A DNA stretch of 23,305 nucleotides from Myxococcota bacterium (GTDB taxonomy: Bacteria > Myxococcota_A > UBA9160 > PR03), in contig JASJBO010000015.1 in NCBI GenBank assembly GCA_030066475.1, positions 1 to 23,305 on the forward strand, read 5' to 3'. Both the position numbers and the translations under genes were made by a program. Of the stretch, positions 10,154 through 23,122 are shown piece by piece (the stretch's first letter is position 1; each line of letters starts with the position of its first letter). Below the pieces are notes generated by a model, which saw nothing but the letters and a program-made list of their open reading frames with translations, made no database searches and was not told the origin of the DNA.

Positions 10154-11938
10154 TCAGCTGCTCGAGGGTCGGCCGCGCCGTCCGGCCGTGCGCTCCATCA
10201 GCGCGACCCACTCCTCGGGCGCCACGGGTCGGCTGCACAGGTAGCCCTGGTAGACGTCGCAGCCGCACTCGCGCAGGAAGTCGAGCTGCGCCTCGGTCTC
10301 GACGCCCTCGGCCACGACCGAGAGCCCCAGGCGCTGCGCCATCGCCACGATCGCCGTCACGATGGCGGCATCGTCGGCGTCGTCGGGGATGCTCTGCACG
10401 AAGGAGCGGTCGATCTTGAGCTCGTCGAGCGGGAAGCGCTTCAGCGAGGCGAGCGACGAGTAGCCGGTACCGAAGTCGTCGACCGACACCTTCACCCCCA
10501 TCGCCTTGAACTCGTGGAGGATCTCCGCGGTCTCCTGGGGGTTCTCCATGATCATGCTCTCGGTGAGCTCGAGGATCAGGTACTTGGCGTCGAGCCCGCT
10601 GCGGCGCAGCGCGCCGCGGATCGTGTCGCGGAAGCGGCCGCTGCGGAACTGCTTGCTCGACACGTTCACCGCCACGCGGATCGCCGGCAGGCCCTGGCGC
10701 TGCCAGATCTCGTTCTGCCCGCAGGCGAGGTTGATGGCCCACTCGCCCAGCGACTCGATCAGCCCGGTCTCCTCGGCGATCGGGATGAACCGGTTGGGCG
10801 GCACCGTGCCGAGCTCCGGGTGCTTCCAGCGCATCAGGGCCTCGGCCCCGATGATGCGGCCGGTCTTCACGTCGACCTTCGGCTGGTAGTAGAGGTGGAG
10901 CTGGCGGCGCTCGCGCGCGCGGCGCAGGTCGTTCTCGAGGCTCAGGCGCTCGAGCGACGCCTCGTTGAGCGAGCGGTCGTAGAACTGGTACTCGTGGCCC
11001 CGGCCGCGCTTCGCGTGCGAGGTCGCGACGCCCGCGTTCGAGATCAACGTCTCGACGGTCTCGGCGTCGCCCGGATACACCGCGATGCCGACGCCGGCCG
11101 TCAGGAACAGGTCGCGCCCGTCGAGGTACACCGGCTCGCCGAGCGCGCCGAGGATGCGCCGGGCGACGCGCGCGGCCGCATGGGCCGGGTCGGGGCCGCG
11201 CAGCAGCACCCAGAACTCGTCGCCGCCCGCCCGGCACAGCGGCGTCTGCTCGGGGCGGGGCGCCGGTCCGTCGCCACCGGGCCGCACGCACTTCTCGAGC
11301 CGCTCCGCGACGGTCTTGAGCAGGGAGTCTCCGACGGTGTGGCCGAGCGTGTCGTTGAGCTGCTTGAAACGGTCGAGGTTGACCTGGAGCAGCGCGAACT
11401 CGGCCGCCTCGGCCCGCGCCCGGCGCAGCGCCCGCTCGATCCGCTCCATGAAGAAGCGGCGGTTGGGCAGGCCGGTGAGCCGGTCGTAGTGCGCCAGCCG
11501 GTCGCGGTAGGCCTTGGCGGCGAGCGTGTTGCGCAGGCGCAGGGCCAGCTCGCTCGGATCCACGGGCTTGCCCAGGAAGTCGGTGGCGCCCAGCTCCAGC
11601 GCGCGCAGCTTGGTGGCGGCGTCGGTCGAGGAGGTGAGGATGATGACGGGCGTGTGCTGGAGCGCCGGGTCGCTGCGGATCGCGTCGAGGATCTCGAGGC
11701 CGCCGACGTTCGGCATCATCAGGTCGAGCAGCAACAGGTCGGGGCCGGTCTCGCGGAACAGGTCGAGCGCCTCCCGCGAGTCGGTGGTCGTCACGAGTCG
11801 CGTGTAGCCCTCGCCCTCGAGGAACAGCTCGAGGACCTCGAGCGTGGTGGGCTCGTCGTCGACCATCATGATGGTCGACGCCTTGAGGGCCTCGAGCCCG
11901 TCGACGTCGCCGGACAGAGTGGAGCGGTCGGCGTCCAT
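10154..11938 (-). CDS. REC-GGDEF-EAL cyclic di-GMP response regulator
   Basis: This 594-residue protein has three domains. The receiver domain (about 20-140) has acidic residues D27/D28, phospho-acceptor D72 in LLDLMMP, and K124. The GGDEF domain (about 150-325) has an intact GGDEF at 238-242 and NLDRFKQLND. The EAL domain (about 335-585) has E366 of EALMRW, N425 in NVSS, E457 in ELTES, DDFGTGYSS (487-495), K508 in KIDR, E544 in AEGVET and Q564 in QGY, all the usual catalytic residues. Both synthesis and breakdown of cyclic di-GMP therefore look possible. The inhibitory RxxD site before GGDEF is missing, and a Pro/Gly-rich insertion lies there. No membrane segment is present. Its ATG overlaps the kinase stop (TGATG), so it is probably the output of that relay. 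Confidence 0.93.
   Translation of the reverse strand: MDADRSTLSGDVDGLEALKASTIMMVDDEPTTLEVLELFLEGEGYTRLVTTTDSREALDLFRETGPDLLLLDLMMPNVGGLEILDAIRSDPALQHTPVIILTSSTDAATKLRALELGATDFLGKPVDPSELALRLRNTLAAKAYRDRLAHYDRLTGLPNRRFFMERIERALRRARAEAAEFALLQVNLDRFKQLNDTLGHTVGDSLLKTVAERLEKCVRPGGDGPAPRPEQTPLCRAGGDEFWVLLRGPDPAHAAARVARRILGALGEPVYLDGRDLFLTAGVGIAVYPGDAETVETLISNAGVATSHAKRGRGHEYQFYDRSLNEASLERLSLENDLRRARERRQLHLYYQPKVDVKTGRIIGAEALMRWKHPELGTVPPNRFIPIAEETGLIESLGEWAINLACGQNEIWQRQGLPAIRVAVNVSSKQFRSGRFRDTIRGALRRSGLDAKYLILELTESMIMENPQETAEILHEFKAMGVKVSVDDFGTGYSSLASLKRFPLDELKIDRSFVQSIPDDADDAAIVTAIVAMAQRLGLSVVAEGVETEAQLDFLRECGCDVYQGYLCSRPVAPEEWVALMERTAGRRGRPSSS

Positions 11939-23122: not shown

Follow-up and report, generated by a model that had tools for sequence, protein, structure and literature searches.

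Among the closest described counterparts of the locus reported here is the Lap system of Pseudomonas fluorescens, which is made up of LapA, LapD, LapG and a type 1 exporter and which likewise combines a giant repeat protein, enzymes of cyclic di-GMP (cyclic dimeric guanosine monophosphate), a cysteine peptidase and a periplasmic CACHE/PAS-like domain. There are also likenesses to phosphorelays running from a hybrid kinase to a REC-EAL or REC-GGDEF-EAL protein, of which PvrS-PvrR is an example, in that a HisKA-REC-Hpt relay adjoins a REC-EAL phosphodiesterase-type protein. By what means a bacterium detects contact, or the condition of its largest envelope proteins, is an open question. We analyzed a 23,305-nucleotide stretch of DNA from a Myxococcota bacterium (assembly GCA_030066475.1, contig JASJBO010000015.1; hereafter the window), three minus-strand genes of which encode a giant protein with an LEPR-XLL motif and a DUF4347 domain, a hybrid histidine kinase and a REC-GGDEF-EAL protein.

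Our best reading is that the window covers the 3' portion of a conserved locus for the export and monitoring of a giant protein, and the most specific link within that locus is the one between the C-terminal anchor of the giant and the sensor domain of the kinase. In contrast to Lap, the sensor sits on a histidine kinase or a cyclase, the peptidase-like domain lies inside the giant, the giant has a C-terminal membrane module, and relatives carry an HlyD/M50/SecA-type cassette. In contrast to known hybrid kinase phosphorelays, a dedicated sensor domain pairs the kinase with a giant.

A recurrent three-gene order

Read 5' to 3' on the minus strand, the genes are those for the giant (14768-23122; 2784 residues, GTG start at 23122, stop at 14768), the hybrid histidine kinase (11938-14757; 939 residues, ATG at 14757, stop at 11938) and the REC-GGDEF-EAL protein (10154-11938; 594 residues, stop at 10154). 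The first two are 10 bp apart (14758-14767), and the kinase stop overlaps the ATG of the last gene, starting at 11938, as TGATG. In the window, 73% of which is guanine plus cytosine (GC), third-position GC is 0.96-0.975 in these three frames but 0.685 and 0.693 in the long competing frames that we checked (10154-14386, minus strand, and 14423-22396, plus strand), and because of this wide difference we take the three as the coding frames. An earlier interpretation made from the letters and the list of open reading frames (the sequence-only reading) had described three minus-strand genes with this gap and overlap, and both coordinates and codon-position GC bear it out; Pfam and NCBIfam also matched the domain content that it had assigned to the three proteins.

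The same reading had proposed that the giant, an Hpt-bearing kinase and the REC-GGDEF-EAL protein are one unit and had staked this, in advance, on the order recurring in relatives. With the C-terminal module of the giant as the query we found 285 relatives in genome contigs and kept the best 80 loci, which span several phyla and include culturable carriers such as Neptuniibacter caesariensis, Marinobacter sp. F3R11 and an Aquabacterium isolate; the four best matches (L001-L004) are in records titled Deltaproteobacteria or Myxococcota. A kinase with the same sensor lies directly 3' of the giant in 62 of the 80 loci, that is, in 60 of the 73 with at least 3.5 kb of downstream sequence and in 54 of the 65 with at least 6 kb. 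The REC-GGDEF-EAL gene is also present in 52 of those 54, with one further gene between it and the kinase in L004 and L007, so that 52 of 65 relatives keep the order. In L002, which lies at a contig end, the parts of sensor and kinase are spread over two frames, and we scored this locus as lacking the kinase. The recurrence is far beyond chance, and we regard it as all but certain that the three genes form a conserved unit. Clustering of the neighbors 3' of the triad revealed no universal fourth gene. In three Granulosicoccaceae loci with no adjacent kinase (L021, L023 and L080), large proteins come after the giant, and the annotated one (L023) has PA14 and galactose-oxidase-like domains.

Pairing of the sensor domain with the giant's anchor

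The sensor domain occupies kinase residues 1-180 (14218-14757, minus strand), where two predicted membrane helices surround a domain with the predicted fold of a single-CACHE/extracytoplasmic PAS domain. Residues E47, R75 and W125 are invariant; the sensor alignment (A3) has 56 rows, consisting of the window and 55 of 65 sensor stretches. A sequence search of the PDB with the sensor gave no match. A fold match to 4u64 and the invariant hairpin Trp led us to consider the sensor as a LapD homologue, a candidate that we rejected when hhalign of the sensor profile against 13 LapD N-termini gave a Probab of 0.25 and an E of 0.24. Judged on predicted models, the sensor and the periplasmic domain of LapD share a CACHE/PAS-like fold only, as a matter of analogy and not homology.

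The anchor is a module of about 88 residues delimited by alignment of relatives (residues 2684-2771; 14810-15073, minus strand), and consists of an amphipathic stretch, a split hydrophobic stretch, an SSLPAW..DPLP-like motif and an acidic ESL tail. The hydrophobic stretch is broken at R2727-G-G, where Arg is present in 25 of 25 alignment rows and the two Gly in 24 and 23 (alignment A1, 25 of 37 fragments, near-duplicates dropped by eye). It is possible that the module forms one long membrane helix or two short ones, the latter as a helical hairpin. The PDB sequence search with the anchor returned only a chance-level row (E 0.7).

The two elements occur together. Of 229 gammaproteobacterial genomes, drawn evenly, 9 gave a sensor match and those 9 an anchor match as well, with neither matched in the other 220; of 188 Myxococcota genomes (the phylum of G014, the genome of locus L011, a Myxococcota record) 9 gave a sensor match and 8 of these, but no other genome, an anchor match. 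The genomes at the center of the two samples, G005 and G014, were carriers by choice; leaving them out gives sensor and anchor counts of 8 and 8 in 228 gammaproteobacteria and of 8 and 7 in 187 Myxococcota. We found 46 sensor copies in 32 carrier genomes, 38 of them having an anchor at most 1 kb to their 5' side in the same orientation, and the scores of the pairs form two matching classes, 27 of class I, 11 of class II and none mixed, under a threshold that was fixed after the scores were seen. The sensor is thus found almost solely in anchor-bearing genomes, mostly in the next gene.

The phosphorelay and its probable cyclic di-GMP output

By Pfam and NCBIfam the kinase runs from a membrane-flanked sensor through PAS, HisKA, HATPase and REC domains to two Hpt domains, the HisKA-HATPase-REC-Hpt series of a hybrid histidine kinase phosphorelay. 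The relay residues are present as H330 (HisKA), D631 (REC), H761 and H883 (Hpt) in the kinase and D72 in the response regulator, the last being the receiver Asp that the sequence-only reading had named. The dual-Hpt character that it had given the kinase holds in the window but not as a rule: counting the window, 30 kinases have one Hpt, 30 have two and one has three, with two more cut by contig ends. The window proteins fall below the NCBIfam equivalog cut-offs of BarA (375.3 of 890) and PvrR (223.1 of 580), which sets them apart from those families. In two Myxococcota-type loci (L004:3784-4713 and L007:10341-11165) an extra REC-Hpt protein is encoded between the kinase and the REC-GGDEF-EAL gene, so that the relay there would be longer, and in Neptuniibacter caesariensis (L038:10291-17061) a three-Hpt kinase is followed by two tandem REC-GGDEF-EAL genes.

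The REC-GGDEF-EAL protein of the window has D72, an intact GGDEF motif, and E366 with the other catalytic positions of EAL. Across 56 class I proteins (the window and 55 relatives) the REC Asp is kept in all 56, as are the EAL catalytic residues E, N, E, D, K, E and Q, with a second Asp in 55, while the exact GGDEF motif is found in just 15, the window copy among them. In sequence, these proteins have the phosphorylatable REC and full EAL set of a REC-linked cyclic di-GMP phosphodiesterase. With its EAL positions conserved and its GGDEF motif decaying, class I most likely breaks down cyclic di-GMP; we consider a phosphodiesterase output probable.

The second class joins a similar sensor to an intact diguanylate cyclase in one protein, and the neighboring giant is of a second class too. 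The 16 regions that we fetched, picked around second-class sensors, all encode sensor-PAS-GGDEF with GGEEF (16 of 16); five have a second, altered GGDEF plus an EAL domain, and the anchor lies inside the fetched stretch in 11. Judging from these motifs, class II most likely makes cyclic di-GMP; the sign of control is something that we infer. Sensor-GGDEF-EAL genes also directly adjoin two class I loci (L041:6845-11866 and L005:7751-12395), a further DUF4347 frame coming after in L041 and a second anchor-bearing frame adjoining on the minus strand in L005.

Conserved ends of the giant protein

Pfam and NCBIfam place in the giant an LEPR-XLL motif (residues 17-39; 23006-23074, minus strand; NCBIfam NF012209, 27.3 bits, passing the cut-off of 17), a DUF4347 domain (residues 71-243; 22394-22912, minus strand), PKD, NHL/Vgb-like and cadherin-like repeats, and then comes a Pro-rich linker before the C-terminal anchor. 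Among relatives the Pfam content of the middle varies and both ends are conserved. A simple LEPR-type pattern is present in 22 of the 37 giants listed, the window included, several others having a near-match or seemingly lacking the start; DUF4347, where present, comes after the LEPR region.

DUF4347 has a predicted caspase/CHAT-like fold with an invariant His/Cys pair, features that it shares with clan CD-like cysteine peptidases (Tce1, SAVED-CHAT and C11), and it models as a candidate peptidase of this kind with H134 and C177 as the candidate dyad. It differs from those enzymes in being located close to the N-terminus of a giant envelope protein instead of in an injected effector, and its activity is putative. 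The PDB sequence search with DUF4347 returned only one weak row, 9qpe_G (E 0.064), which carries the name "DUF4347 domain-containing protein" and is described as a putative cysteine protease (PMC13323088).

An export-like cassette in relatives

Only 183 bp of the window lie upstream of the giant and the next gene is outside view, so the genes described in this section are visible only in relatives. The lead came from an M50-HlyD family, seen next to three loci, and from an HlyD adaptor, seen next to four. All 32 carrier genomes have the M50-HlyD family, as do 29 of the 229 gammaproteobacteria, namely 9 of 9 carriers and 20 of 220 others; these 20 genomes have no match for anchor or sensor, and the family may therefore export other proteins as well. 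We picked 14 regions with an M50-HlyD match near a giant, so the gene order in them is not a rate: all 14 have M50-HlyD, 13 a GAF-HlyD-like gene, 11 an HlyD adaptor and 8 a short SecA paralogue, and in 13 the cassette genes lie upstream of the giant. In the remaining one, L127, they come after the REC-GGDEF-EAL gene and before a second DUF4347 gene. Among the GAF-HlyD-like proteins scanned, Pfam found GAF in those of L029 and L125, whereas that of L122 matched in its HlyD part alone. SecA domains were confirmed by Pfam in the three short SecA proteins scanned; the one scanned with NCBIfam, from L125, reached no SecA or SecA2 cut-off. Reading the match rows, we count a short SecA in 25 of 32 carriers, G021 being counted from fragments beside its M50 gene. 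The PDB sequence search with M50-HlyD gave no match.

The sequence-only reading had called the module self-contained, a description that does not hold in relatives, where the three genes often sit in a larger cluster that includes GAF-HlyD-like, M50-HlyD and HlyD adaptor genes and often a short SecA. A short SecA paralogue beside export-like genes recalls accessory Sec systems (SecA2), although here it is linked to M50-HlyD and HlyD adaptors. Whether this cassette exports the giant we judge to be an even question. In two gammaproteobacterial loci (L006:15398-17443 and L013:6643-8655) the short SecA comes after the REC-GGDEF-EAL gene on the opposite strand.

What the kinase may be sensing

We favor the possibility that the giant is exported, anchored and monitored by the neighboring receptor, which would set cyclic di-GMP; as the best overall explanation we give it a probability of about one half. 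The giant would leave by its own cassette of HlyD-type adaptors, the M50-HlyD membrane metalloprotease and, often, a short accessory SecA, and its C-terminal hydrophobic module would hold it in the inner membrane beside the kinase. The state of the giant (present, fully exported, cut by its own DUF4347 peptidase or pulled from outside) would alter the sensor, and phosphate would pass along H330-D631-H761/H883-D72, switching the EAL domain and lowering cyclic di-GMP; in class II the related sensor would act directly on the diguanylate cyclase. The key step is contact between anchor and sensor, which we infer and which fits the pairing statistics; on balance we lean slightly towards the sensor reading the giant.

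CACHE domains often bind small molecules, and for this reason the sensor may not touch the giant at all. It could instead read a small extracellular molecule, with the relay and cyclic di-GMP deciding on synthesis, export or release of the giant, which would then be the target and not the signal. We think this rather unlikely, as a ligand sensor needs neither confinement to genomes with one C-terminal membrane module nor a class-by-class match to the anchor across two output types. Plain co-transcription of envelope functions that travel together, with no signaling link between giant and kinase, would fit the short gaps and overlaps, but it would not call for a near-complete genome pairing of one domain with one domain that is kept when the output shifts from kinase to cyclase and that persists at the genome level with non-adjacent class I copies (G017, probably G011); we regard it as very improbable. 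The parts shared with Lap raise another scenario, in which cyclic di-GMP governs proteolytic release of the giant, with DUF4347 or the M50-HlyD protease taking the role of LapG, and the sensor that of LapD. This too seems improbable, if a little less so. The sensor does not align significantly with LapD N-terminal profiles, and the output of the kinase is directed inward. As the sequence-only reading had noted, there is no LapD- or LapG-like gene here: the 11 window proteins gave no Pfam match to LapD (LapD_MoxY_N, PF16448) or LapG (PF06035). In 24 carrier genomes, hand-picked from the 80 loci and thus carriers by design, each family has matches in 14 and none in 10, the LapD matches all lying either on a contig other than those of the giants and sensors or some 200 kb or more away from them, and the LapG matches never at giant loci. 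Since these parts are not at giant loci, we would caution against filing DUF4347/LEPR-XLL giants as Lap-type adhesins.

Several observations weigh against the monitoring model. The class matching could be explained by joint inheritance of an operon, and class scores measure likeness to class I because the sensor and anchor alignments were both built mainly from it. Unpaired copies number 8 of 46 sensors and 12 of 50 anchors, some near contig ends; G405 has a class II-like sensor and no anchor match; and the absences are not absolute, because for some genomes scoring covered only a subset of the first-look candidates (e.g. 13 of 18). The adjacent kinase is missing in 13 of the 73 loci with at least 3.5 kb downstream, namely nine Granulosicoccaceae/Granulosicoccus giants, L010, L042, L015 and L020, with a second giant next in the last two. 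Insertion of the anchor in the membrane is likely rather than proven, because its hydropathy is moderate (19-residue Kyte-Doolittle peak about 1.5). The His is lacking in 8 of 93 Hpt matches in relatives (12 miss the motif used, 4 of which keep a His), so one Hpt is sometimes lost. The window enzyme may also synthesize cyclic di-GMP, because its GGDEF is intact. Finally, the cassette lies outside the window, and 7 of 32 carriers (G003, G005, G008, G076, G118, G214 and G230) have a long SecA only.

We tentatively propose a distinct Gram-negative export-and-sensing system in which HlyD adaptors, M50-HlyD and often an accessory SecA would deliver LEPR-XLL giants with their own caspase-like peptidase, and in which the anchor would be the ligand of a dedicated CACHE-like receptor; of the two matched classes of this receptor, one would lower cyclic di-GMP (kinase to EAL) and the other would raise it (direct GGDEF). 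There is a fair chance that it deserves a class of its own, beyond cyclic di-GMP-linked giant envelope proteins. Each recognizable domain belongs to a known kind; what appears new is how they are combined, along with the two-class pairing of sensor and anchor and the cassette, as we found no description of these or of the locus in the literature (open-licence papers only). If the model is right, a cell gauges the state of a giant envelope protein via that protein's tail. A receptor domain almost exclusive to one membrane anchor provides a concrete, testable ligand-receptor pair in several phyla and ties the unexplained DUF4347/LEPR-XLL giants to cyclic di-GMP, while recurrence of the locus in distant bacteria suggests an undescribed means of coupling the monitoring of giant envelope proteins to a lifestyle switch.

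Surroundings of the operon

A search of plasmids with the kinase and REC-GGDEF-EAL DNA gave 36 records, none covering 80% of the query; the matches listed cover 2-3%, and on that account we see no close plasmid copy. No tRNA was found in the window. The leader at the window edge (23123-23305, minus strand) contains the ribosome-binding-like GGGGAGAGGAG. The flank at 352-9972 encodes vWA, Sel1-repeat, patatin, TANGO2-like, FolC and MFS transporter proteins, along with a 467-residue minus-strand protein without a Pfam match. These genes have no clear link to the operon, on which the FolC and MFS transporter genes converge.
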